From: Dethiosulfovibrio peptidovorans | Lineage (GTDB): Bacteria; Synergistota; Synergistia; Synergistales; Dethiosulfovibrionaceae | NCBI GenBank assembly: GCA_002748665.1 | Contig: PDTB01000021.1 | Span: 62,001-126,000, forward strand | Length of the DNA: 64,000 bases | Direction of reading: 5' to 3' | Shown: positions 7,704 to 20,502 of the stretch, in pieces | How the letters are laid out: each line of letters begins with the position of its first letter | Numbering within the stretch: the first letter of the stretch is position 1 | Notes under the pieces: model-generated | What the model saw: only the letters and a program-made list of their open reading frames with translations | Told to the model about the DNA's origin: nothing | Database searches by the model: none | Made by a program: the position numbers and the translations under genes

Positions 7704-7882
7704 GTTTTGGGTTCTATTGATACTTAAAGCTAAGGTATTATGGGTCAAGACACGTTTATCTGTCTGAGGGCCACTGTTCGATGTTGTCCTTGGAGGCGAT
7801 AGTCTGTTGAGAAACAGCGAATACGGTGATGCGGATGAGAGGTGTTGTATGACGACCTTTTCTGAAGAAGGAGGTGAAACGG

Positions 7883-9493
7883 TTGTCTGTAACGGTCAGG
7901 GATATACTAAGGATGTCTGAGCTCATCGATGTACGCCTTCTGGCTGGTCGTGAGGGGCTCGACAGAGGCGTTTCAAATGTCAATGTGATGGAGGCTCCCG
8001 ATATCGTCCGATGGCTTCATGGAGGGGAGTTCATTCTGACGTCTGCGTATGCCTTTCGTGACGACCCTGGGGCCATGCTGCCTCTTTGCAGGCAGATGAA
8101 GGATGCTGGTGTCTCCGCTTTTGGTATCAAGCCAAAACGTTTTCTATCGGAAATACCAGAGGAGTTGCTCTCCTTAGCTGAAGAAATTTCATTGCCCATC
8201 ATTGAATTGCCTTCTCATTTAGCTTTCGGTGATGTTATCTTTCCTGTTCTCTCTAAAATAGTGGGGGAAAGTGTGGGGGATATCCGTTTTTCCGAGGCGA
8301 TTCTCCGTTCTTTGTATACTTTAATGGCTGCAGGAGGAACCATGCACCAGATACTCTACACGGTACGAAATTTTTTGCGTGTTGGAGTTGCCTACCTTGA
8401 TCTCATTGCCAGAGACCGGTATGTATGTTCTTCCTCAGGTCCCTTTGAGGATGAGATTCATAGTGATACGATCCAGCATTTGACCCAGAAATATGTCGCC
8501 GAAGCCATAATTCTTTCGGGAGTTATTTATGGCTATATCGTCGTGGATATCGATCGGGAGTTAGCGCTGGACAGACAGAGGGCTATAGTCCTGGAGCATG
8601 CTAAGAGTGCGGTTCTCGTGTGTGTTCAGCGTGAGATGGCAGCCAGAGAGACGGAACGCCGATACCGGGATGAGTTCATTCAGGATCTCCTTTTTAAAAA
8701 TATCCGTTTTGAACGGGAGCTTTGGGCGAGGGCCGAGCGTTTTGACTGGGATTTCAGAGGTCCTTTCCAAACGGTCATTGTAGACATAGATAATTACAAG
8801 ATATGTATTGGAGATGCCAATACAAGCCCGGTCTGTTCCGATCTCGAAAGCAGAAGAGAGCGGATAATCACGTTGGCTATAGATATTATGAGATCCCATT
8901 ACCGTAAGATCCCGTACACGACCATGAGTGATATGGTGGTTTTTCTTCTCCCTTTAGGTAAAAAAGACAGCGGAGTTTATGAGTCTCTAGAAGACGTACT
9001 GCCTAAACTTCGGGCTATGATCAAAGAGCAGACAAATTTCTCTGTTACGATCGGTATAGGTGCCCCTAAGGAGAGCTGTTTCCTCTGTCACGAGAGCTAT
9101 GATGAGGCAAGGGAGGCTATCAACACCATACGTCCTCTGCTCGGGGGGGATCGGGATGTTTATTGGAGACGAATGGGTATGTATGCCATTTTGGCCAAGA
9201 TCAGCACCCTTCCCGAATCCGAGAGGTTCTACAGGGAGCAGCTTGGAGCGGTTCTCCAAACAGAAGGACGGGCAAGGGACGATCTCCTGGCTACGTTGGC
9301 GGCCCTGTCCGAAAATAACTGGTCTCTGCGAAAGACAGCGATGTCTCTTTGTATTCACTACAATACCCTTCGCTATAGGCTTGATAAGCTCCGTGAGCTT
9401 ATGGGGTCCGATATGGACTCTGGAGAGGAGCGGCTCAGCATCGCTCTGGCTCTGAAATTATATACTCTTGCCAAAGAACGACGATTGAAATAG
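7883..9493 (+). CDS. PucR-family transcriptional regulator
   Basis: The 536-residue protein has the N-terminal PucR domain (about 1-125, beginning VTVRDILRM with the HGGEFILTSAYAF segment), a poorly defined middle region that may sense ligand, and a C-terminal PucR-type helix-turn-helix (about 480-530: ENNWSLRKTAMSLCIHYNTLRYRLDKL). PucR proteins control purine and allantoin catabolism, which matches the genes that follow. TTG at 7883 is chosen because AAGGAGGTGA lies about seven bases upstream; the GTG at 7874 lies inside that ribosome site. The gene has its own strong terminator, so it is transcribed separately from allC and probably activates or represses that operon. Confidence 0.85.
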   Translation: MSVTVRDILRMSELIDVRLLAGREGLDRGVSNVNVMEAPDIVRWLHGGEFILTSAYAFRDDPGAMLPLCRQMKDAGVSAFGIKPKRFLSEIPEELLSLAEEISLPIIELPSHLAFGDVIFPVLSKIVGESVGDIRFSEAILRSLYTLMAAGGTMHQILYTVRNFLRVGVAYLDLIARDRYVCSSSGPFEDEIHSDTIQHLTQKYVAEAIILSGVIYGYIVVDIDRELALDRQRAIVLEHAKSAVLVCVQREMAARETERRYRDEFIQDLLFKNIRFERELWARAERFDWDFRGPFQTVIVDIDNYKICIGDANTSPVCSDLESRRERIITLAIDIMRSHYRKIPYTTMSDMVVFLLPLGKKDSGVYESLEDVLPKLRAMIKEQTNFSVTIGIGAPKESCFLCHESYDEAREAINTIRPLLGGDRDVYWRRMGMYAILAKISTLPESERFYREQLGAVLQTEGRARDDLLATLAALSENNWSLRKTAMSLCIHYNTLRYRLDKLRELMGSDMDSGEERLSIALALKLYTLAKERRLK

Positions 9494-9522: not shown

Positions 9523-9563
9523 GTTCGGTAGAGAACTTTTAGTTCTCTACCGAACTTTTTTTT
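9523..9563 (+). terminator. Strong rho-independent terminator after pucR-like gene
   Basis: GTTCGGTAGAGAACT and its exact reverse complement form a 15-bp stem with a three-base loop, followed by eight T. It separates the regulator transcript from the allantoin operon. A weak -10 candidate, TACAAT at 9601-9606, lies between it and allC; no good -35 is visible. Confidence 0.9.
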
Positions 9564-9633
9564 ATAACTACGCCACGATGTTTTGGGAGGGGGTCAAAAA
9601 TACAATTTAAGTGTTTCAGGAAAGGAGATACCC

Positions 9634-10878
9634 ATGGGACGAGTGGTATCCAGAGAAAGAATATGGAGGGATATCGAGGCCATTGGCAGTTTTGGGAGGG
9701 GGGATGCTCCGGGGAGAACCAGTTTTTCTTACAGTGATCAAGACGTGGTAGCCAGGCGCTACCTCACTGAACAGATGCGGGAGCTTGGCATGAGTATCTC
9801 TGCAGACGGTGTCGGAAATATCAGAGGTCGTCTGAACGGTTCTGACGGTTCTCTTGCGCCTGTTATGAGCGGTTCTCATATCGATTCCGTCGCTTGTGGT
9901 GGTGATTACGATGGAGTCGTTGGGGTTGTCGCCGCGCTTGAGGTTGCCCGGTGTATCGCAGAACGAAAAATTGAGTTGCTCAGGCCATATGAGGTTGCGA
10001 TTTTTTCTGAGGAAGAAGGTTCAAATTTTGGAGTGACCTGTGCAGGAAGCAAGGTCATGACCGGGGCTCTGGATGTTGAAGGCATAAAAAAAATAAAAGA
10101 TGCTGATAATGTGTCTATGTACGACAGATGTATAGAAAGGGGTTTCGATCCCGAGTCTCTCCATTCGGGAAGAGTTATGCCTGGACAGATCCACGGGATG
10201 GTGGAGCTCCATATAGAGCAGAGCGTTCTTTTGGAATCTCAGGCAATGCAGATAGGAGTGGTTCAATCCATCGCCGGGCTTTGCCAATGTAAGTTGACCT
10301 TTCGAGGTACGGCAAATCATGCTGGCTCGACCCCTATGAATTTGAGGCAAGACGCTCTTGTGGGGGCTTCCCGGTTTGTTGTGGAGTTAGAAAAACTGGT
10401 CCGGGATGATCCTTCTCCGTCCGTAGTAGGTACGGTCGGGGCTATCCAGTGCGAGCCTAACGCTTCAAACGTTATACCTGGAATTGTGATCATTTCTCTG
10501 GACGTGAGGGATGTTTTTCCAGATGCGATTGATCGGGTCATTGACGTCTGTCAGGAAAGAGCTCGTTTGATAGCTGTGGAAAAGGGGCTGGACTGTTCCT
10601 TTGAAATTTTGGGCAGACAAAGTCCCGTCGCTCTATCGCCTAAGATATGCAAGATGATATCGGAATGTTCAGATGCAAAGGGCCTCCGATGGATGCCGAT
10701 GAACAGTGGGGCGGTACATGATTCGGTTTTATTGAGCTCAGTTACGGAGACAGGGTTGATTTTTGTCCCAAGCAAAGCGGGGAAAAGCCATTGCCCCGAT
10801 GAATATACCGACATGGACGAGATTGCTGATGGAGCGGAGGTCCTTCTGTCAACAATTGTAGCTTTGGCTAACAGCTGA
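9634..10878 (+). CDS. allC: Allantoate amidohydrolase (M20 family)
   Basis: The 414-residue protein belongs to the M20 allantoate amidohydrolase / N-carbamoyl-L-amino acid hydrolase group. Motifs are SGSHIDSVACGGDYDG (His82 and Asp93 are metal ligands), FSEEEGSNFG (Glu126-128, catalytic base and metal ligand), a VELHIEQS segment and a late GKSHCPDE His. The family hydrolyses allantoate to ureidoglycine, CO2 and ammonia. The neighbouring allE and allB make allantoate the likely substrate here rather than an N-carbamoyl amino acid. The ATG at 9634 follows AAAGGAGAT at ideal spacing; upstream in-frame TTG codons have no such site. It is the first gene of the catabolic operon, and the allE ribosome site begins within about 20 bases. 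Confidence 0.88.
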   Translation: MGRVVSRERIWRDIEAIGSFGRGDAPGRTSFSYSDQDVVARRYLTEQMRELGMSISADGVGNIRGRLNGSDGSLAPVMSGSHIDSVACGGDYDGVVGVVAALEVARCIAERKIELLRPYEVAIFSEEEGSNFGVTCAGSKVMTGALDVEGIKKIKDADNVSMYDRCIERGFDPESLHSGRVMPGQIHGMVELHIEQSVLLESQAMQIGVVQSIAGLCQCKLTFRGTANHAGSTPMNLRQDALVGASRFVVELEKLVRDDPSPSVVGTVGAIQCEPNASNVIPGIVIISLDVRDVFPDAIDRVIDVCQERARLIAVEKGLDCSFEILGRQSPVALSPKICKMISECSDAKGLRWMPMNSGAVHDSVLLSSVTETGLIFVPSKAGKSHCPDEYTDMDEIADGAEVLLSTIVALANS

Positions 10879-10898: not shown

Positions 10899-11666
10899 AT
10901 GGGGTATCCTAAGGATTTTCTCGAAACCCGGGCAGTGGTGCATCATGGAGCGTATGCGGTTATACCGCCGGAAGGGAGGGTTGTCAACGTTATACCTGGC
11001 TTTGAGGGCTTCACCACAACGATTATTGCTTCACCGAAGATGGGGGCAAGTTTTGTCCAGTACATTTCCAAGGTATCCCCTGGGGCGAAAACGACAGTCC
11101 CTTTTGGAGGAAATGGTGTTGAGACTTTTGTGTACTTTATGGACGGTGAAGGCGAACTTACCGTAGGAAGTCGGGGCGAAGAGCATATCCTTCAACAGGG
11201 AGGCTATCTTTTCTCGCCGGAAGATAGTCCAATATCGATTAAAAATGACTCCAGGGGGACAATGCGCATTCTCCTGTACAAACAGAGGTACATCTCCATT
11301 GATGGTCATGAAGCCAGGGTTGTGTGTGGCAACGTGAACGATATTCCTGAAGAGATTTATGACGAAATGGAGAACGTGTTTATTCAAGACCTTCTGCCCA
11401 AGGATCTGGGGTTCGACGTCAATTTTCACGTTTTGTCCTTTGAGCCTGATGGCTGTCACCCTTTTGTCGAGACCCACGTTCAGGAGCATGGGGCGTACAT
11501 CACCCAGGGGCAGGGGATTTACATGTTAGGTGAGGATTGGGTTCAGGTAAAGAAAGAGGACTTTATATGGTTTGGCCCCTTTGTCCAGCAGGCTGTCTAT
11601 GCTACTGGTAGAGAGCGGCTTAGTTATATTTATTCGAAAGATTTCAACAGAGATGTAGATATTTAG
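10899..11666 (+). CDS. allE: (S)-ureidoglycine aminohydrolase
   Basis: This 255-residue bicupin closely matches E. coli AllE/YlbA in length and in segments such as IPGFEG, GxGVETFxY, YIETHVQEHGAY-like and the C-terminal FNRDVDI. The Mn2+ ligands known from the plant enzyme are all conserved with the same spacing: Glu191, His193, His197 and Gln231. The enzyme deaminates (S)-ureidoglycine to (S)-ureidoglycolate. It follows allC by 20 bases with a GCGGAGGTG ribosome site, placing the second and third steps of allantoin breakdown side by side. Confidence 0.93.
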   Translation: MGYPKDFLETRAVVHHGAYAVIPPEGRVVNVIPGFEGFTTTIIASPKMGASFVQYISKVSPGAKTTVPFGGNGVETFVYFMDGEGELTVGSRGEEHILQQGGYLFSPEDSPISIKNDSRGTMRILLYKQRYISIDGHEARVVCGNVNDIPEEIYDEMENVFIQDLLPKDLGFDVNFHVLSFEPDGCHPFVETHVQEHGAYITQGQGIYMLGEDWVQVKKEDFIWFGPFVQQAVYATGRERLSYIYSKDFNRDVDI

Positions 11667-11684
11667 AATATAGGGGTGAGAGAA

Positions 11685-12677
11685 ATGTCGTTTACCGAAA
11701 AAATCTATCGTGATGAAGATGTCGATCTTGGAGTTTTAAAGGGGAAGACCGTCGGTATTATCGGATATGGAAGCCAGGGCTATGCACAGGCGAACAATCT
11801 TAGAGACAGTGGCGTGGATGTCATTATTGGAGCAGGCGACAGGCGTTTTCATAGTGGTTGGGATAAAGCCGAAAAAGATGGCTTTACCGTTATGTCTATA
11901 GAGGACGCGGTGAAGAAAAGTGACGTTGTTCATATCCTGCTGCAGGACCCCGCTCAGCCGGAGGTCTACTATTCCTCTGTCCATGCGAATCTGAAGAAAG
12001 GCCAAACCCTGAGTTTCGCCCACGGTTTTGCCATACTGTACGGAACCATCAAGCCCCCGAAAGATGTGGATGTGGTGTTATTCGTTCCCAACGGACCGGG
12101 GCCGGTGGTGAGGCAGAAATACTTGAATGGCTCAGGGATTTACGGTTGCGTTGCAGTTGACCAGGATGTCACCGGCAAGGCTGCCGAGATTGCTCTCGCC
12201 ATAGCCAAAGGTGTCGGCAGCACGAGGGTTGGAACTATCCTGATGTCTTTTCAGCACGAAACCGAAGGGGATAACTTTGAGGAACAGGTCCTTTATGGCG
12301 GAGCCATTCATCTTATGAGAGGCATATACAAGGTCATGACCGAAAATGGCTACCCGAAATCCTTTGCGTACGCTAAAGCGATTCGATCAATTCGATCCAT
12401 CATCGATGATATCGATGAGGTTGGTATAGAGGCCTATCTGACCGGTCGAGCGAGCAGAACCTGTGAGTTTGCCGTGAGGACATCTGGTCCCAGAGTTGTT
12501 AACTACGACGAAATTCAAAAGATATTCGAAGAAACTGAAAGAGGCGAGTTTGCCAAAAGGTGGCTTCTTGAGTTCAGCCAGGGCATGCCGGTTTTAAACC
12601 GTATGAGACGGACTTGGCAAGACTCGGATATGGAGGCAACAGGAATAGAATTCAGAAAGCGGTTTGGTCTTTCTTAG
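11685..12677 (+). CDS. Ketol-acid reductoisomerase-like protein, divergent active site; candidate ureidoglycolate dehydrogenase
   Basis: The protein (330 residues from ATG 11685; AGGGGTGAG is upstream; a GTG nine bases earlier lacks a site) aligns end to end with class I IlvC. In numbering from that GTG it has GYGSQG near 31, AHGF with His116, and DNFEEQ keeping the Mg ligands Asp199 and Glu203. The catalytic Lys of the PKGPG motif is Asn139 (VPNGPG). The two Glu of the second domain that complete the metal and substrate site are Lys234 and Ser238. It therefore cannot do the normal isomeroreductase chemistry. Rossmann loop residues RRFHS suggest NADP(H). It lies between allE and a carbamoyltransferase, in a cluster lacking AllD; oxidation of ureidoglycolate to oxalurate is the inferred role. 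No other ilv or leu gene is near. Confidence 0.7.
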   Translation: MSFTEKIYRDEDVDLGVLKGKTVGIIGYGSQGYAQANNLRDSGVDVIIGAGDRRFHSGWDKAEKDGFTVMSIEDAVKKSDVVHILLQDPAQPEVYYSSVHANLKKGQTLSFAHGFAILYGTIKPPKDVDVVLFVPNGPGPVVRQKYLNGSGIYGCVAVDQDVTGKAAEIALAIAKGVGSTRVGTILMSFQHETEGDNFEEQVLYGGAIHLMRGIYKVMTENGYPKSFAYAKAIRSIRSIIDDIDEVGIEAYLTGRASRTCEFAVRTSGPRVVNYDEIQKIFEETERGEFAKRWLLEFSQGMPVLNRMRRTWQDSDMEATGIEFRKRFGLS

Positions 12678-12718
12678 CAGCTTTAATCTGTTCGAGTTGA
12701 CGAAAGGAAGTGTTCCGT

Positions 12719-13732
12719 TTGGCAATTACCTCTGATTTTGCGCCGTCATGCATCGCTGCAGAGATGGAAGCGACAGAACTTCGCGGGAAGAATCTTGAAT
12801 TTCTTACGGATCTTTCCAAGGAACGATATAACCATCTCTTTAAAGTAGCTGAGATGCTTGAGCCTTTTTGGAGAACTGGCCTGAAACTTATGTCGGGAAA
12901 GGTTTTGGGGGCGCTCTTCTTTCAGCCTTCGACCAGAACCAGATTCAGTACCGAGTTGGCTATGATCCGTCTGGGCGGAGGGGTTCTTTCCGAGTCCAAT
13001 CCCGGGAAAAGTTCGTCCGCTGCTAAGGGAGAGAGTTTGGCTGATCACCTCAGAACCGTCTCTCAGTACGCCAATATCATAGGCTTGCGGCATCCTGACT
13101 ACTCTGTAGTATCTGAAGCGCTCTCCTACGCTGATGTCCCTGTGATCAGCTGCGGTTGGGGAGATGTAACTCATCCAACCCAGGGCTTGCTGGATATGTA
13201 CACTGCATATAGAGCCTTTGGTGGTTTCGATGGGCTGAGGGTATGCATCGCTTCATCCGACCTTTCCAGAGCGAGAAGTGGTCACTCCTTCGCTATGGGC
13301 TTGGCAATCATGGGAGCGGAAATCGTCTATGTGGGGCTCAAGGAAAATCCCATCCCCTCTGCTGTGCGAGAAAGGTTAGAGGCTGCAGGCGCTCGTTTGG
13401 AGGAGCACTACGACATTTCAAATGCTGAGTTTATGGACGTGATGGCGACGACGCATCTTTGTTATTTACCGGGGTGCAGTGTGCCTAAGGATAATCCCGA
13501 TGCAAGAAACGCTTTTATGAATAAAATAAAAGAGTTTTATATCACCTTGGATAACCTCAATTCTATAAAGAAAAAGGCCGGTCGTTCTATAGGTGTTATG
13601 CACTCCCTGCCCAGAAACTCGGTCGAGTTCGATTACGCCATTGATCACAGTGAGTTCGAGCTGTACTTCAAGCAGTTGGCCTTTAGCGTCCCGATACGTA
13701 TGGCGCTGGTAGCTTCTATGGTTGGCATTTAG
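12719..13732 (+). CDS. Aspartate/ornithine carbamoyltransferase-family protein; candidate oxamate (or ureidoglycine) carbamoyltransferase
   Basis: The 337-residue protein is built like ATCase. The carbamoyl-phosphate residues are conserved: PSTRTR (Ser71-Thr74), KGES (Lys103), RHP (Arg124), HPTQ (His152, Gln155), an Arg equivalent to ATCase Arg167 (Arg186) and HSLPR. The pair that binds aspartate in ATCase (Arg229 and Gln231, in TRVQ) is THLC here (His246, Cys248), and the ornithine SMG motif is absent. The second substrate is therefore neither aspartate nor ornithine. In this operon the expected step is phosphorolysis of oxalurate to oxamate plus carbamoyl phosphate; a ureidoglycine carbamoyltransferase has been proposed for related paralogs. 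TTG 12719 is favoured because AAAGGAAG is about nine bases upstream; GTG 12710 and ATG 12764 are alternatives. Confidence 0.75.
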   Translation: MAITSDFAPSCIAAEMEATELRGKNLEFLTDLSKERYNHLFKVAEMLEPFWRTGLKLMSGKVLGALFFQPSTRTRFSTELAMIRLGGGVLSESNPGKSSSAAKGESLADHLRTVSQYANIIGLRHPDYSVVSEALSYADVPVISCGWGDVTHPTQGLLDMYTAYRAFGGFDGLRVCIASSDLSRARSGHSFAMGLAIMGAEIVYVGLKENPIPSAVRERLEAAGARLEEHYDISNAEFMDVMATTHLCYLPGCSVPKDNPDARNAFMNKIKEFYITLDNLNSIKKKAGRSIGVMHSLPRNSVEFDYAIDHSEFELYFKQLAFSVPIRMALVASMVGI

Positions 13733-13793: not shown

Positions 13794-14996
13794 ATGTTGT
13801 TACGACAGGGAATTAGGAAGACTTGTGTTTTTGCTTTGGTGCTTGCTTTGATGGCTAGTGCGGGGGCCTGCTTTGGGGTTCAAAAAACGTTGAAGATAGG
13901 CGTTTTGGGTGTTATGAGTGGTCCTGCGGCGTCGTGGGGATTGGTGAATCGTTATTGTGCTGAAGCAAGGGCTAATATCATCAACAAAAGTGGCGGTTTT
14001 GAAATAGGAGGAGACAAATACCTTATTAAAATCGTTGCCATTGATGATCGCAACGACCCCAAGGTCGCTGTGGCAGGAGCAGAACGTCTTATCTATGAAG
14101 AAAAAATACATTACATCATAGGTCCTAATATTGACCCAACCTCCATGGCGGTTCAGCCTATCCTTGAAAAGGGTAAGGCCATGAATATACCATATTCTTT
14201 TTCGAAGAGTTTATACAGCCCTCCTGCAAGTAACTCGATCCTTGGAATGATCGCCTCCTATCAGGGTGGACCGGTTATATACAAATATCTCCAGGAAAAA
14301 GCGGGTATTAAGAGTATTGCCTTTGTTGCTCGAAATGACGCCGAGTCTCTTAACCAAAGAGATGAGGGAATTGCTGCAGCTGAAAAATTAGGTCTCACGG
14401 TACTGTCTGGAAGAGATACGTATGAGACTGGTACGACGGATTTCTTCCCTGTAATGTCCAGTGTCGTTGCCAAGAATCCAGATCTACTCGTCTTGTCGGG
14501 GGCCGCTCCTTCTGATACTCCGTTGCTGATCAAGGCTGCTCGAGAGCTTGGATTTAAGGGCAAAATGAGCACGGAAACGGCTCAGGACGCAAAAGTTATC
14601 TCTGAACTTGCAGGCGATGCTGCAAACGGATTTATCTGCGTTGGCGGGGCAAGTACGCCAGAAATCAGAAGTAAGGAAATGGAAGATTTCGCAAAGGAAT
14701 ACGAGAAAATTGCCGGAGAATGGAACGATGAGGCGGGCACCAAGGTCTATGCTCTCGATATGTTCCTGTATACCCTGAGGGCGGCTGGGCCGGAGGCCAT
14801 CAATGATATTGAGCTTTTTAAGAAGCAGATTAATAAGTTTTCTATGCCCAATCCCTACCTCAAGGATCATCGTCCCCTTCACTATGTCGGAGCTGGATAT
14901 TTTAATCAGAAACGCCAGATTTCTGTTCCTATCGTCGTGAACGTGTATGAAAATGGTGACTTTAAAACTCTGTTTGTTGGGGACATTGATCGGTAG
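13794..14996 (+). CDS. ABC transporter periplasmic binding protein, Liv/HAAT family (Peripla_BP_6)
   Basis: The 400-residue protein has a signal peptide (about 1-28) followed by a LivK-type two-lobed binding fold (KIGVLGVMSG start, INKSGG, KIVAIDDRNDP, YIIGPN). Complete LivHMGF-like components follow. HAAT systems import branched-chain amino acids, amides, urea and, in some bacteria, purine-derived compounds. Given the surrounding genes, allantoin, allantoate or a purine is the likely cargo (inference). GAGGAGGTG precedes ATG 13794. A stem-loop after the gene probably lets the binding protein be made in excess of the membrane parts. Confidence 0.85.
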   Translation: MLLRQGIRKTCVFALVLALMASAGACFGVQKTLKIGVLGVMSGPAASWGLVNRYCAEARANIINKSGGFEIGGDKYLIKIVAIDDRNDPKVAVAGAERLIYEEKIHYIIGPNIDPTSMAVQPILEKGKAMNIPYSFSKSLYSPPASNSILGMIASYQGGPVIYKYLQEKAGIKSIAFVARNDAESLNQRDEGIAAAEKLGLTVLSGRDTYETGTTDFFPVMSSVVAKNPDLLVLSGAAPSDTPLLIKAARELGFKGKMSTETAQDAKVISELAGDAANGFICVGGASTPEIRSKEMEDFAKEYEKIAGEWNDEAGTKVYALDMFLYTLRAAGPEAINDIELFKKQINKFSMPNPYLKDHRPLHYVGAGYFNQKRQISVPIVVNVYENGDFKTLFVGDIDR

Positions 14997-15020
14997 TAGC
15001 TCAGTCTTGTAATCTCAAAA

Positions 15021-15055
15021 AAGGGGAGGCTTCGATTTGTGAAGGCCTCCCCTTG
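15021..15055 (+). terminator. Intercistronic stem-loop after the binding protein gene
   Basis: AAGGGGAGGCTTC and GAAGGCCTCCCCTT pair with one bulged G, followed only by TTGTTT. This is a leaky terminator or 3'-end stabiliser, typical between a binding protein gene and its permease genes. Confidence 0.7.
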
Positions 15056-15085
15056 TTTCGAGAGAAGAAGGGGGATGACAAGTAT

Positions 15086-15940
15086 ATGGAGCAGGTTATT
15101 TTTAATGGTTTATATGCTGGAGCTCAATATGCGCTTATAGCGTTAGGATTGACGTTGATTTTTGGTCTTATGAACGTCATGAATTTCGCTCACGGTCAGC
15201 TTTATGTCCTCGGTGGTTTTATAACGTATTACGTATATGGAGAATTGCATCTTCCCTACGGAGTTGCCCTATTGGCAACTGCTCTAGCCCTTGCTGCGGT
15301 CGGATACGGATTTCAGGCGCTTCTTTTCAAACCTGTTCTGAGCCGCAGCGACAGAGAAGAGAGCAGTATGCTTCTCTCTGCAGGGACGGCAATAATGCTT
15401 GAGAGCTCTATTCTGATTTTTTTTGGAGAAAAACACAGGGGAGTTCCTGCGGTTGTCGAGGGCGTTCTGCGTGCGGGCTCCGTTTTTATGCCTAAGGGGC
15501 GTCTGTTAGTGATTGGACTTTCCTTTTTGTTTATCCTGTTGTTCATATTATTTATGAAATATACGAGGCCTGGCCGAGCCTTGCGGTCTATGGCCCAGGA
15601 TAGGGAAACGGCAGAGCTCATGGGCATCAACGTGGAAAAGTACGCTCTTTTAGGCTGGATGATGGCTGCTGCTTTGGCAGGAATTGCGGGAGCTATGCTT
15701 GTGCCTATCTCAGGTGTGAATTCAGGGATAGGGCAGTGGATATCAATTAAGGCATTTATCATGATAATGATCGGGGGAGCAGGTGTCATCTCGGGAGCTA
15801 TTCTCGGTGGGCTTGCTTTAGGTATATGTGAATCGTTAGGTTCCCATTTTTTCCCTGGTGGTGCCACGTACTTGATCATTTTTGTTTTTTTGATGGTTTT
15901 CATCTCAGTGCGTCCCAATGGAATTATGGGGAAGGCATAA
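15086..15940 (+). CDS. Branched-chain amino acid-type ABC permease, LivH-like
   Basis: The 284-residue, strongly hydrophobic protein begins with QVIFNGLYAGAQYALIALGLTLIFGLMNVMNFAHG, characteristic of LivH permeases, and has about eight predicted membrane segments plus the conserved cytoplasmic loop SMAQDRETAELMGI (EAA-like, for ATPase contact). ATG 15086 follows AAGGGGGA; the upstream in-frame start at 15053 would begin inside the hairpin. It should pair with LivM (15954) in the inner membrane to import the ligand of the 13794 binding protein. Confidence 0.88.
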   Translation: MEQVIFNGLYAGAQYALIALGLTLIFGLMNVMNFAHGQLYVLGGFITYYVYGELHLPYGVALLATALALAAVGYGFQALLFKPVLSRSDREESSMLLSAGTAIMLESSILIFFGEKHRGVPAVVEGVLRAGSVFMPKGRLLVIGLSFLFILLFILFMKYTRPGRALRSMAQDRETAELMGINVEKYALLGWMMAAALAGIAGAMLVPISGVNSGIGQWISIKAFIMIMIGGAGVISGAILGGLALGICESLGSHFFPGGATYLIIFVFLMVFISVRPNGIMGKA

Positions 15941-15953
15941 GGAGGGAGAGAAG

Positions 15954-16958
15954 ATGAGCGTGCTCCGTAAGAAAAGTACGATACTGCTGGTCTCCCTGCT
16001 TGTGCTGTACTTAGTGGGATTTCCGATGGTGTTCTCTCACGCGCCTTATTTTTTAGGTGTTTTGACAACAGCATCAGTTTTAAGCCTCATTAGCGGCGGT
16101 GTTTGGCTGATATTTTACATCGGACGTATAAACATAGGGCAGGGAGCTTTTGCTCTGGTCGGTGGATATACCGCTGCGGTTCTCATTACAAAGATGCAAA
16201 TTCCCTTCTGGTTTGCTTTGCTGGGCGCTGGTTTGAGCTCGGTTATCCTGAGCGTTGTTATTGGGTGGCCGCTGTTGCGCTTGAAAGGCGTCTATTTCTC
16301 CATGATAACGTTAAGTTTGACCGAAGTTGCCAGACTTGCGGCTCAGACTTTAACCCCGATCACTAACGGATCTAAGGGAATACTGAATATACCTTTGCCA
16401 GGGGCTTTGAAGGTAGGGGGTGTGACTCTCATCCCTGACTTTTCTACGGTAGATAAACATTTTGCTTTTTATTATTTAGGGGCGTTCTTGCTTATAGTTG
16501 GTTTTGCTGTTTTGTATAGAGTTGTTCACAGCAGATTGGGTTGGCTTCTCCGCTCTCTGTTGCAAAATGAGGATCTTGCCTCTTCTTTTGGTGTGAATGT
16601 TCCTAAACTCAGGGTCATAACCTTTGCGATTTGTGCTGCTATGGGTGGCGTAGGCGGTGCTTTTTTTGTCGTCATGCAGCAGTGTGTCTATCCGGCCACT
16701 TTTTCAGTGCAGGATTCCACATATTTCCTGCTGTATTGCTTTTTAGGTGGGCTTGGAAGCGTTTGGGGAGCTATAGCAGGAACCTTTGTGTTGTTCATCA
16801 GTTTTGAATTCCTGCATGGTCTTAACGAATATCAGCCCCTGATTTATTCCTTAATCATGATAGGGATGATGCTTTGGCTGCCTAATGGCATTATGAGTAT
16901 ACGAAGAGCTTTTTATGGTCGATTTTTGTCAAAAGACAGTTCGACGAATCTGAGTTAG
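15954..16958 (+). CDS. Branched-chain amino acid-type ABC permease, LivM-like
   Basis: The 334-residue membrane protein has the LivM pattern: INIGQGAFALVGGYTAA near residue 60, a SMITLSLTEV segment, the loop SLLQNEDLASSFGVNV and a C-terminal GGLGSVWGAIAGTFVL. ATG 15954 lies 13 bases after the LivH stop behind AAGGAGGG. It is the second transmembrane subunit of the transporter in the allantoin cluster. Confidence 0.88.
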   Translation: MSVLRKKSTILLVSLLVLYLVGFPMVFSHAPYFLGVLTTASVLSLISGGVWLIFYIGRINIGQGAFALVGGYTAAVLITKMQIPFWFALLGAGLSSVILSVVIGWPLLRLKGVYFSMITLSLTEVARLAAQTLTPITNGSKGILNIPLPGALKVGGVTLIPDFSTVDKHFAFYYLGAFLLIVGFAVLYRVVHSRLGWLLRSLLQNEDLASSFGVNVPKLRVITFAICAAMGGVGGAFFVVMQQCVYPATFSVQDSTYFLLYCFLGGLGSVWGAIAGTFVLFISFEFLHGLNEYQPLIYSLIMIGMMLWLPNGIMSIRRAFYGRFLSKDSSTNLS

Positions 16959-16970
16959 GGAGTGCCGTCT

Positions 16971-17753
16971 ATGTCCTTGATGCGAGTTTCCAATGTCACG
17001 AAAAAATTTGGTGGGCTTGTCGCTGTGAATAACGTGTCTTTTTCCGTGAACGAAGGAGAGATCCTCAGCATTATAGGTCCTAACGGTGCAGGAAAGAGCA
17101 CGCTTTTTAAGTTGTGTTCCTCTTTTTTGCCGGTCTCGTCTGGTGATATTTTTTTCAGGGAAAAAAATATCACCTCTTTGTCGCCTCATATCGTTGCTCG
17201 AATGGGGATTATCAGAACCTTCCAGGAAACTACGATATTTAAAGATATGACTGCTCTGGAAAATGTTATCGTTGCCCATCACCTCCAGAGTAAGGCTTCT
17301 TTAATGGGCTTCTTTTTCAATACGTCCACCGCGAGAAAAGACGAGGAGCGTTTTCGTCAGAGTGCGGCTGAAATTCTTGATTATCTGGGGTTGGGAGGTA
17401 TCAAGGAGACCAAGGCTTCTAATTTGCCTCATGGTTCTCTTCGTTCGCTGGGTATAGCTATCGGGATGGCTGCCTCTCCTAAAGTCCTCCTTTTGGATGA
17501 ACCTTTTGCTGGTATGAATTCCGATGAGACAGCTCAAGCTATGACGATGGTGAAGAGTATCAGAGAAAAAGGAGTGACGATCCTTTTGGTCGAGCATGAC
17601 GTATCTGCTGTAATGAAGATTAGCGATCGGATAGTCGTGCTTAATTTTGGCACCAAGATTGCCGAAGGATTGCCTGAAGAAATTCAAAAAAATGAGGCAG
17701 TCATTGAGGCATATCTTGGCAGGGAAGACGACGAAGAGGAGGTGCAGGAATAA
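16971..17753 (+). CDS. ABC transporter ATPase, LivG-like
   Basis: The 260-residue ATP-binding subunit has Walker A GPNGAGKST (about 33-41), Walker B VLLLDEP (about 165), a switch His in VEHD, and the divergent signature LPHGSLRSL that replaces LSGGQ, as usual in LivG. The C-terminal extension is LivG-like. ATG 16971 is preferred over GTG 16962 because GGGAG is eight bases upstream. It couples ATP hydrolysis to the LivH/LivM channel. Confidence 0.9.
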   Translation: MSLMRVSNVTKKFGGLVAVNNVSFSVNEGEILSIIGPNGAGKSTLFKLCSSFLPVSSGDIFFREKNITSLSPHIVARMGIIRTFQETTIFKDMTALENVIVAHHLQSKASLMGFFFNTSTARKDEERFRQSAAEILDYLGLGGIKETKASNLPHGSLRSLGIAIGMAASPKVLLLDEPFAGMNSDETAQAMTMVKSIREKGVTILLVEHDVSAVMKISDRIVVLNFGTKIAEGLPEEIQKNEAVIEAYLGREDDEEEVQE

Positions 17754-17755
17754 CC

Positions 17756-18490
17756 ATGTATTTTGAGGCTAAAAACCTGGTTCTGTCATATGGTCATGTT
17801 CAGGCGCTTAAAGATGTCTCTTTGTCCGTTGAAAAAGGGGAAATTGTGACCCTTATAGGAGCTAACGGTGCTGGTAAAACCTCTGTCTTGAGGGCAATAA
17901 CGGGGCTGAAAAAAATAAAAAACGGGTCAATTTCTTTTGATGGGAATAAATTAGACAATTTGTCAACGGAGCAAGTGGTGTCAAAGGGCATCGCTATGGT
18001 TCCAGAAGGACGGCATGTCTTCCCCATCATGAGTGTCAAAGATAATTTGTTGATGGGGGCATTTTGTCTGAAAAAAGACAAGGTTACCATAAAAAACAGA
18101 CTTGAAATGGTTTTTAATCGTTTCCCCCAGCTTAAGGACCGGTCAAAGCAGTTGGCTGGGACTATGAGCGGTGGGGAGCAGCAGATGCTCGTAATTGGTC
18201 GAGCTCTTATGGCGGATCCGAAGCTTTTGCTTTTAGACGAGCCTTCTTTAGGTGTGGCACCTATTGTTGTGGGTGAGATTGTCGACGTTGTTAAAAAAAT
18301 AAATAAAGAGGAGGGTGTCAGTGTTATTCTCGTGGAGCAGAATTCTCGAATGGCTTTAAAAATATCGCATCGTGCCTATGTGATGATGAATGGTGAAGTC
18401 GTTTTCCAGGGTAATTCTGATGAGTTGTACAACGATGAGCGGATTCAAAAGGCGTATTTAGGTGGAGATTTGAAATCTGCGTCAAATTGA
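17756..18490 (+). CDS. ABC transporter ATPase, LivF-like
   Basis: The 244-residue protein has Walker A GANGAGKTS (about 38-46), MVPEGRHVFP typical of LivF, signature TMSGGEQQML and Walker B LLLLDEPSLG. GAGGAGGTG lies within the end of the LivG gene and the start codon follows its stop by two bases. It forms a heterodimer with the LivG-like ATPase. Confidence 0.92.
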   Translation: MYFEAKNLVLSYGHVQALKDVSLSVEKGEIVTLIGANGAGKTSVLRAITGLKKIKNGSISFDGNKLDNLSTEQVVSKGIAMVPEGRHVFPIMSVKDNLLMGAFCLKKDKVTIKNRLEMVFNRFPQLKDRSKQLAGTMSGGEQQMLVIGRALMADPKLLLLDEPSLGVAPIVVGEIVDVVKKINKEEGVSVILVEQNSRMALKISHRAYVMMNGEVVFQGNSDELYNDERIQKAYLGGDLKSASN

Positions 18491-18511: not shown

Positions 18512-19066
18512 ATGATTGATAATAAGGTAATCGAAACGATTTTAGGTCGTCGCAGTCATAGGACATTTGAAGATCGACCTGTAGATACGAGTGTTGTCGA
18601 TGTTCTCTTGGAGTGTGCTTTTGCTGCGCCCAGTGCTTTGAACCTTCAGCCCTGCCATTTTATGGTTATAGATGACAGGGCTCTTTTGAACGCTATTGGA
18701 GACGGATATGGTAAGACTCGAATGGTGCACGAAGCTTCTCTCGCTATCGCTGTGTGTGTAGACGTGCCAAACTATGAAGAGAGATCAGGTCTCTTCGATG
18801 GAACCTGGATGGAAGATGGGGCTACTGCCATGGAGAATATGCTCTTGGCTGCAAGGGCTCTGGGGCTGGAGGGAGTATGGCTTCAGGTAGCGAACCGTTC
18901 TCCAAGAGAAGAAAATATCACCGCTGTGTTAGATATGGATCCAGGTTTCAGGGTTTTTGCTATGGCGGTACTCGGTTATCCTAAAGAGAAGCTGGCGCCT
19001 CATAAGGGAATTGATGAGAGCAGAGTTCATAGAAATGGAGTCCTCAGGGTAGAAAAAAGGTCATGA
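18512..19066 (+). CDS. Nitroreductase-family flavoprotein
   Basis: The 184-residue protein matches FMN-dependent nitroreductases: an RRSHRTFEDRPV start with the FMN-phosphate contacts, SALNLQPCHF around residue 45, and the C-terminal LGYPKE motif. These proteins use NAD(P)H for two-electron redox reactions on varied substrates. Its place between the transporter and allB suggests it takes part in the purine/allantoin route (for example a ring-redox step or disposal of electrons), but nothing in the sequence fixes a substrate. It is co-directional and 21 bases from LivF. Confidence 0.75.
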   Translation: MIDNKVIETILGRRSHRTFEDRPVDTSVVDVLLECAFAAPSALNLQPCHFMVIDDRALLNAIGDGYGKTRMVHEASLAIAVCVDVPNYEERSGLFDGTWMEDGATAMENMLLAARALGLEGVWLQVANRSPREENITAVLDMDPGFRVFAMAVLGYPKEKLAPHKGIDESRVHRNGVLRVEKRS

Positions 19067-19146: not shown

Positions 19147-20502
19147 ATGAAATACGATCTAATCGTGCAGGGAGGGAGGCTTGCCCTTGACGGTGGTGGC
19201 GTTATTGCTGATGTGGGGGTCATCGACGGCACTATCGTCTCCATAGGTTCGAATCTCGGTGATGCTGACGAAGTGATTGATGCATCTGGGTGTGTTGTTA
19301 CCCCTGGAATGATCGATTCTCATACTCATATATCAGAGCCCGGGCGGACGGAATGGGAAGGATACCTCACTGGCACGTCCGCTGCTGCAAAGGGCGGCGT
19401 TACTTCGTGCATTATGATGCCTTTGAATCAGATTCCATGTATTGAGGATAGTAACGCGTTAAATATTCAGTTCAATGTCGCTCAGGACAAGATGAAGATC
19501 GATATAGCTCTCTATGGAGCCCTGACACCAAGAAATCTGGGGATGCTAGAGGAGCTTGCTCAGGGGGGAGTAGTCGGATACAAGGCTTTCATGGCAACCT
19601 GTGGAGATCGTTCTATAAAGGGTGATATGATGAACGTTGACGATTACTCCTTGTATGCTGGGATGAAGACCATTTCCGAGACGGACAGAGTTTTGGCCCT
19701 CCACTGTGAAAATGCCGCCATAACGGATATGTTAGGGCGTTTGGCTGCGGAAAAAGGTCCTGATTCCTTGAAGGCCTATGTGATGTCTCGCCCTGTTTTT
19801 ACAGAGGTTGAGGCAGTGCGAAGGGCTATCTATTTGGCTGAGCAGGCGGGCGTTAAGCTCCATATATGCCACTGTAGTTGTCCCGAGGCGGTTTCGGAGG
19901 TCACCGCAGCCAGATTCAGGGGGGTACCTGTTTCGGCCGAAACCTGTACCCACTATCTTTATTTTTCAACCGAGGAGCTGGATGAGATTGGTACATCCGC
20001 TAAGTGTTCCCCTCCGATAAGAGAGGAGACGAATCGGGAAAGAATGTGGCAAAAGCTTTTTGCCGGTGAGATCGCCTGCGTTGGATCGGATCATTCCCCC
20101 TGTACGCCTGACTTGAAAGAAGGGACGGCCTTTTCTGCATGGGGTGGAATTGCCGGAATTCAGAACAGCTACGATGTCCTTTTCGATGAGGCTGTTCAAA
20201 AAAGGAGAATGCCCCTTAACCAATTTGTCGCTGTGACTGCGACCAATGCAGCGGAAATCTTTCATCTGAAGGGGAAGGGGCGTACGAGCATAGGGTACGA
20301 TGGGGATTTTGTTCTCATAAGACCCAATACGTACTACATTATTGAGGCGGATGGCCTGGAATATAAGCATAAGATAAGCCCATACGTGGGGCGATCCGTA
20401 GGATGTCAAATAGAGAGAACTGTCGTAAGAGGAAGAACTGTTTACTCTCGGAGTGGAGGCGTAAGTTCAACCTCATGTGGTCGTTTTATCTTGAGATGCT
20501 GA
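19147..20502 (+). CDS. allB: Allantoinase
   Basis: The 451-residue amidohydrolase is highly similar to E. coli AllB across its length. DSHTHISEPGR carries zinc ligands His59 and His61, VVGYKAFMATCGDR supplies the carbamylated Lys, ALHCENA and HICHCSCPE supply the other His ligands, and VGSDHSPC supplies the catalytic Asp. AKCSPPIR and the C-terminal KGKGRTSIGYDGDFV match too. It opens the hydantoin ring of allantoin to give allantoate, the substrate of AllC. It is the last gene of the cluster. A short out-of-place reading frame overlaps the stop of the preceding gene but is not convincing. Confidence 0.95.
   Translation: MKYDLIVQGGRLALDGGGVIADVGVIDGTIVSIGSNLGDADEVIDASGCVVTPGMIDSHTHISEPGRTEWEGYLTGTSAAAKGGVTSCIMMPLNQIPCIEDSNALNIQFNVAQDKMKIDIALYGALTPRNLGMLEELAQGGVVGYKAFMATCGDRSIKGDMMNVDDYSLYAGMKTISETDRVLALHCENAAITDMLGRLAAEKGPDSLKAYVMSRPVFTEVEAVRRAIYLAEQAGVKLHICHCSCPEAVSEVTAARFRGVPVSAETCTHYLYFSTEELDEIGTSAKCSPPIREETNRERMWQKLFAGEIACVGSDHSPCTPDLKEGTAFSAWGGIAGIQNSYDVLFDEAVQKRRMPLNQFVAVTATNAAEIFHLKGKGRTSIGYDGDFVLIRPNTYYIIEADGLEYKHKISPYVGRSVGCQIERTVVRGRTVYSRSGGVSSTSCGRFILRC

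Follow-up and report, generated by a model that had tools for sequence, protein, structure and literature searches.

The window, the whole stretch of 64,000 nucleotides of Dethiosulfovibrio peptidovorans DNA analysed here, carries an allantoin operon in which the gene after allE encodes a protein with the fold of class I ketol-acid reductoisomerase (KARI; IlvC, EC 1.1.1.86). Sequence and context strongly support both a role of this KARI-like protein in allantoin breakdown and the loss of its isomerase site. We further consider it probable that the protein is a KARI-fold enzyme without the isomerase half that has kept hydride transfer, and that, as an NAD(P)-dependent dehydrogenase of (S)-ureidoglycolate, it takes the place of AllD without being homologous to it. 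More tentatively, we propose a wider scheme, in which this dehydrogenase arose through the loss of one of two metals and the adjacent carbamoyltransferase (TCase) is a second, AllFGH-independent oxamate carbamoyltransferase. One phylum would then use two or more unrelated redox systems to form oxalurate, namely the KARI-like protein in some genomes and ETF plus an FAD dehydrogenase in others; a class V aminotransferase may be a third solution. If true, half-reactions that a textbook bifunctional enzyme combines would be found apart in a natural KARI-fold protein, a natural single-metal form of KARI would be at hand for comparison with mutants, and a missing step of allantoin use would be supplied. 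In the openly licensed literature, a full-text search returned no paper on KARI together with allantoin and ureidoglycolate, and among the papers listed by looser searches no title or abstract beginning linked KARI to ureides; two algal papers contain all three terms.

The allantoin operon and its relatives

The original prediction had placed the KARI-like gene between allE and a carbamoyltransferase gene with no ilv gene nearby. This agrees with the operon as we find it: allC, allE, the KARI-like gene and the TCase gene follow one another, allB lies downstream and no ilv gene is present in the operon (Table 1). The AllC assignment is one of subfamily; the AllC equivalog profile TIGR03176 reaches only 266.4 of its 597.75 bits. 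In the transporter, the binding protein was identified by profiles and the other four genes were named from sequence; homologues of the binding protein, 73-75% identical, occur in the AllE regions of genomes G007, G074, G083, G125 and G131. The livG-like coding sequence contains an inverted repeat of 15 pairs whose arms are A/T-rich (window 17142-17174). Between the transporter and allB stands a nitroreductase-family gene (window 18512-19066), which is absent from the corresponding operon of genome G005.

Table 1. Features of the allantoin operon, with positions in the window
Feature	Position	Strand	Evidence and remarks
PucR-type purine-catabolism regulator	7874..9493	+	PF07905 + HTH_30
Hairpin resembling an intrinsic terminator (15 pairs, T tract), between regulator and allC	9523..9555	+	consensus match only
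allC-type M20 amidohydrolase (allantoate amidohydrolase subfamily)	9583..10878	+	NF006771 430.8 bits, cut-off 399
allE, (S)-ureidoglycine aminohydrolase	10899..11666	+	TIGR03214 336.4 bits, cut-off 200
KARI-like protein gene	11685..12677	+	Asn136, Lys231, Ser235 changed; His113, Asp196, Glu200, Ser257 kept (ATG numbering)
Pseudo-ATCase-type carbamoyltransferase (TCase), proposed oxamate carbamoyltransferase	12710..13732	+	PF02729/PF00185
Branched-chain-amino-acid-type ABC transporter (binding protein + livHMGF-like), candidate ureide importer	13794..18490	+	
allB, allantoinase	19147..20502	+	TIGR03178 552.7 bits, cut-off 357.85

In G005 the order is PucR-allC-allE-KARI-like-TCase, followed by two NCS1-family-like permeases, carbamate kinase and allB; the best matches of the permeases include allantoin permease models, all under cut-off. 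AllE, the KARI-like protein and the TCase are 85-91% identical between the window's genome (G000) and G005 and conserved in order, whereas PucR, AllC and AllB are only 63-70% identical and the transporters differ. The allE-KARI-like-TCase arrangement is the same in G000, G003 and G005. Since these operons come from one lineage of one genus, the linkage counts as one evolutionary event, not three. In G000 a carbamate kinase gene lies away from the allantoin operon, directly after an allantoinase/hydantoinase-like ORF (L145 7-1698, G000:C22).

AllD (EC 1.1.1.154) would share the expected reaction and the step after AllE, but it belongs to a different protein family, the L-sulfolactate dehydrogenase-like family, and uses NAD+ (PMC3527362). 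The KARI-like protein (P0001) matched neither PF02615 (Ldh_2) nor the AllD profile TIGR03175 at E 0.001. The earlier statement that AllD is missing holds for the operon; elsewhere in G000, however, there is one gene of the AllD superfamily (Ldh_2), which falls under every AllD-type cut-off. Ldh_2-family genes are also found in four same-genus genomes without AllE. In principle, the Ldh_2 gene in G000 and G005 could supply AllD activity, which would count against the dehydrogenase reading.

A KARI fold with an altered catalytic site

The ORF is intact and encodes 330 residues, in the frame and at the coordinates originally proposed. Its start codon is probably the ATG at 11685, which is preceded closely by a ribosome-site-like GGGGTGA; the GTG at 11676, on which the first residue numbering was based, is the less likely start. 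We therefore number all residues three lower than before.

End-to-end homology to class I KARI, as first suggested, is borne out at every level. The TIGR00465 ilvC profile scores 300.8 bits (NCBIfam; cut-off 226), NF004017 gives 329.6 bits, slightly below its cut-off of 336, and PF07991 and PF01450 (Pfam) match across almost their whole lengths, so that both KARI domains, the Rossmann and the second domain, are present. Full-length identity to class I KARIs is 38-45%, and sequence comparison with KARIs in the PDB yields E values down to 2.8e-85. AlphaFold2, run on 26 sequences, gave five models with mean pLDDT of 76-91, the best of which has a mean of 90.9 and a pTM of 0.86. All of the 50 structural matches listed for this model are KARIs, with a query TM of up to 0.94, the value for 7q03, a closed methanogen enzyme. 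The loop after the second strand, GAGDRRFHSGW, is at least two residues longer than in the class I rows compared.

The differences from class I KARI lie in the catalytic residues. We aligned 47 rows, comprising three odd proteins (from G000, G003 and G005) and 44 rows from 43 other KARI genes (L043 repeats L010): 34 from the phylum, eight from plasmid-collection records (seven bacteria, one archaeon) and E. coli IlvC. Matches were present in 130 phylum genomes, and the 34 are the ones whose loci were retrieved. At the positions of E. coli K155, E389 and E393 the three odd proteins all have Asn, Lys and Ser, whereas the 43 others have Lys, Glu and Glu throughout. The catalytic Lys is thus replaced by Asn and the second-metal Glu pair by Lys and Ser, in accordance with the substitutions first noticed. 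The positions of E. coli H132, D217 and E221, the His and the first-metal Asp/Glu, are conserved in every row, and the second-domain Ser (E. coli S414) is retained in the KARI-like protein. An alignment error hiding the residues at shifted positions was ruled out by the 47-row alignment together with a residue check: there is no Glu within residues 221-244, and the first Lys after Asn136 is Lys145.

In MtKARI, site A Mg2+ is bound by Asp191/Glu195 and site B by Asp191/Glu231, with Glu227 more distant (PMC8615647). Asp191/Glu195 align to Asp196/Glu200 of the KARI-like protein, and Glu231/Glu227 to Ser235/Lys231. By sequence, the site-A ligands are therefore kept, whereas the site-B Glu pair and the catalytic Lys are lost. 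The divergence extends further: of 91 near-invariant columns (a single residue in 97% or more of 42 class I KARIs), 30 are altered in all three odd proteins, 20 of these at residues 197-285 in the second domain, and 61 are retained by one or more of the odd proteins. By its predicted fold the protein falls within the KARI family, and its sequence marks it as a new variant of that fold. As it lacks two defining catalytic features, it should not be annotated as ilvC, the label that genome annotation would give it with TIGR00465 over cut-off.

The KARI-like gene is the only PF01450 match in G000. Orthologues with 90-91% identity occur in G005 and G003, both of which additionally have an ordinary KARI; of the six other species searched in the genus, the remaining four have the ordinary one only. 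In G005 the ordinary gene is flanked by ORFs for an ACT-domain protein and an acetolactate-synthase-like protein (neighbours named from sequence). All further matches among 185 phylum genomes are at most 43% identical (E up to 1e-60). In the tree, the three odd proteins with the same Asn/Lys/Ser set form the separate clade that the original prediction had asked about, with a support of 100/100 and a stem of 5.93 changes per column. The clade falls outside the KARI groups of the phylum, and an origin as a recent duplicate of the genus's own ilvC is accordingly not supported. Its nearest row is Alkalihalophilus (89/87), a placement that may reflect long-branch attraction.

Between G005 and G003 the KARI-like gene has a dN/dS of 0.032; for G000 against these two, dN is 0.058-0.063 and dS is not estimable. 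These values indicate that the gene is under purifying selection.

A misannotated ilvC class had also been predicted. The profile score agrees with the misannotation, but the class does not look widespread. A DNA pattern for non-Lys KARIs (codons ending in C/T, class I spacing, ExExDxFxEQ; records near the window possibly excluded) gave one hit in the genomes of 84,980 species, within a non-KARI ORF, and none in viral contigs. As a control, the Lys form of the pattern hit every ordinary phylum KARI locus tried and the non-Lys form every odd-gene locus. Matches to the KARI-like protein in plasmid records were all below 60% identity (118 records; 43.8% for the best among the matches listed), and peptide-pattern searches of viral contigs returned no relative of P0001 or P0002. 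A widespread hidden clade is hence not supported; as far as searched, the KARI-like proteins appear to be a small, strongly diverged clade.

The slot after allE across the phylum

Fourteen of the 185 phylum genomes encode AllE. Thirteen encode the TCase (E up to 1e-50), and each of these is among the 14. We sorted the 14 AllE regions by comparison with a query protein set, not by full annotation. The KARI-like gene lies between allE and the TCase gene in three (G000, G003 and G005). In four others (G125, G126, G127 and G131) allE is followed by an FAD dehydrogenase and EtfB, with EtfA next in G125, G126 and G127. Pfam places the FAD dehydrogenases of G125 and G127 in the DAO family, and the G125 copy shares 88-91% identity with those of G126, G127 and G131. 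Genes for the TCase and carbamate kinase come next in G125 and G127; in G131 both are located behind EtfA on a separate contig, and G126 yielded no TCase. This FAD dehydrogenase with EtfB/EtfA is a candidate flavin/ETF-type ureidoglycolate dehydrogenase on the grounds of its position. At L067 10391-13352 (G125), the DAO-family dehydrogenase falls under all named-family cut-offs (two copies scanned).

A class V aminotransferase is present in a further four AllE clusters (G007, G147, G148 and, as a contig-edge piece, G139), those of G147, G148 and G139 being 28-30% identical to that of G007. The class V aminotransferase PucG reportedly converts ureidoglycine to oxalurate. The remaining three (G074, G083 and G153) show neither the redox nor the aminotransferase types compared next to allE, and in G083 an Ldh_2 gene is lacking as well; these clusters, with no recognised oxalurate-forming gene, count against the dehydrogenase reading. 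In G153, a 2Fe-2S xanthine-dehydrogenase-like ORF (named from sequence) lies a few kb away on the opposite strand.

Eighteen genomes, the 14 with AllE and four of the same genus without it, were tested for AllA, AllG and carbamate kinase. AllA, which would channel ureidoglycolate into glyoxylate, is absent from all 18, AllG, the E. coli-type oxamate carbamoyltransferase, is found only in G153, and carbamate kinase is over cut-off in 17. If the pathway runs, another ureidoglycolate route and another oxalurate-cleaving enzyme are therefore needed. Most simply, the oxidation of ureidoglycolate would take place between the AllE and TCase steps, with the enzyme varying from lineage to lineage. G153, whose genome encodes the ATCase-like TCase, additionally has genes resembling E. 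coli fdrA and ylbE, with identities of 39% and 45% (L142 3209-6192).

The window's TCase is below every carbamoyltransferase cut-off listed, despite its PF02729/PF00185 matches, and no plasmid record matched it at E 1e-40. It carries the pseudo-ATCase motifs STRT, HPTQ, H[ST]LP and GX[SC], here as STRT, HPTQ, HSLP and LPGCSVPK. The H[ST]LP and GX[SC] pair is printed for pseudo-ATCase subgroup 2 in Table 1 of PMC4016543. For Rubrobacter xylanophilus the sources disagree: the text of PMC4016543 gives subgroup 1, printed with HPLA, whereas a review gives H(T/S)LP together with the Ser/Lys pair for its ureidoglycine carbamoyltransferase, UGTCase (PMC4581275). This UGTCase is the one assayed pseudo-ATCase member described there and cleaves allantoate (PMC4016543, PMC4581275). 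The substrate loop is nearly identical in all 14 TCase copies, with or without a redox gene nearby; HSLP occurs in 13, and HALP in the second copy of G007. Since the TCase shares its motifs with a group that has an allantoate-cleaving member, and its loop does not vary with the redox neighbour, it may not be an oxamate carbamoyltransferase, which counts against the dehydrogenase reading. The near-constant loop suggests that all copies act on the same substrate, not necessarily oxalurate.

Proposed reaction and its alternatives

In the proposed pathway, AllB and AllC would produce ureidoglycine, which AllE would turn into (S)-ureidoglycolate. The KARI-like enzyme would hold the latter on a single Mg2+ and pass the C2 hydride to NAD(P)+, yielding oxalurate; Lys231 and Asn136 may provide a new general base and substrate contacts. 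The TCase would phosphorolyse oxalurate to oxamate and carbamoyl phosphate, from which carbamate kinase, encoded in the operon in G005 and elsewhere in G000, would yield ATP.

KARI catalyses a rate-limiting methyl migration and then an NADPH-dependent reduction in the same site (PMC11264209). With the second-metal ligands and the Lys lost, the migration step should stop. What would remain is hydride transfer at C2 of a metal-bound 2-hydroxy or 2-oxo acid, which fits the conversion of ureidoglycolate to oxalurate. N-hydroxy-N-isopropyloxamate is a transition-state analogue of KARI (PMC11264209), and a hydroxyoxamate inhibitor is named in the entry title of the KARI structure 6bul. Since oxalurate is N-carbamoyl-oxamate, we count the binding of oxamate-type ligands by KARI sites in favour of the dehydrogenase reading. 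Wild-type KARIs are described as promiscuous reductases (PMC4353338), and fungal KARI mutants at other NADP/Mg residues as reduced in activity throughout (PMC8471054); the literature searched, as far as its text was available, documents no KARI mutants that keep the reductase step alone. The oxidation of ureidoglycolate to oxalurate, already proposed from the window, remains the best-fitting step and is strengthened by the comparison of the slot after allE; the argument for it is one of context and chemistry.

The alternative that fares best, though unlikely, is that the KARI-like protein reduces tartronate semialdehyde, hydroxypyruvate or glyoxylate after the breakdown of ureidoglycolate, while the TCase acts on allantoate as a UGTCase. 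Tartronate semialdehyde resembles the normal KARI substrate minus its methyls. The promiscuity of KARIs as reductases and the UGTCase-like motifs of the TCase also fit this route. Yet no ORF in the fetched AllE regions has E. coli gcl, hyi, glxR or glxK as its best hit, and AllA is missing from every genome tested. Moreover, the redox-gene operon regions of G000, G003, G005, G125 and G131 contain an allC-family gene (in G125 and G131 34-35% identical to that of G005), and a UGTCase would therefore be redundant.

Less likely still is a dehydrogenase acting on a different ureide, such as one that oxidises ureidoglycine, the substrate of the adjoining AllE, to an imine hydrolysing to oxalurate. 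The shared operon is compatible with this, but AllE, which consumes ureidoglycine, is kept in both other operons (85% identity to the window's), and the retained KARI metal site would better suit a 2-hydroxyacid.

That the protein still serves as IlvC in the window's organism is very unlikely. The original prediction had taken isoleucine/valine synthesis to be excluded on mechanism; the loss of the isomerase site is well supported, but exclusion is deduced from residue identity, and G000 still encodes a dihydroxy-acid dehydratase, IlvD (above the TIGR00110 cut-off; L152 7327-8994, G000:C15), and has no other KARI. Its ordinary ilvC was possibly lost or left unassembled. Against an IlvC function stand the loss of the Lys and both second-domain Glu in all three proteins, the ordinary KARI that G005 and G003 possess besides the KARI-like gene, and gene context: the operon is without an ilv gene, and the G000 IlvD gene adjoins transporter-like and regulator-like ORFs (named from sequence), with similar neighbours in G005. 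A catalytically dead or purely structural or regulatory remnant, as the several missing catalytic residues could suggest, is the least credible of all given the purifying selection, the confident predicted fold, the retained His113, Asp196 and Glu200 and the 61 near-invariant columns still kept.

Read as a ureidoglycolate dehydrogenase, the KARI-like protein would give the operon the same chemical order as the anaerobic allantoin module of E. coli (allB, allC, allE, allD, allFGH, allK), in which carbamate kinase also comes last (PMC11326118). The difference is that the KARI-like protein would stand in for AllD, and an ATCase-related TCase for AllFGH. According to that study, oxamate carbamoyltransferase genes were unknown before allFGH (PMC11326118). 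The TCase of the window shares the H(T/S)LP motif and the Ser-x-x-Lys pair given for the R. xylanophilus UGTCase. In R. xylanophilus, however, the UGTCase authors found none of the usual allantoate- or ureidoglycine-hydrolysing enzymes (PMC4016543), whereas the window has genes of the allC and allE types, with a redox gene separating allE from the TCase gene. The second TCase copy of G007 (L143 10269-12339), 67-68% identical to the window's, is followed by an asparaginase-type gene, an arrangement that resembles the R. xylanophilus UGTCase neighbourhood as described.
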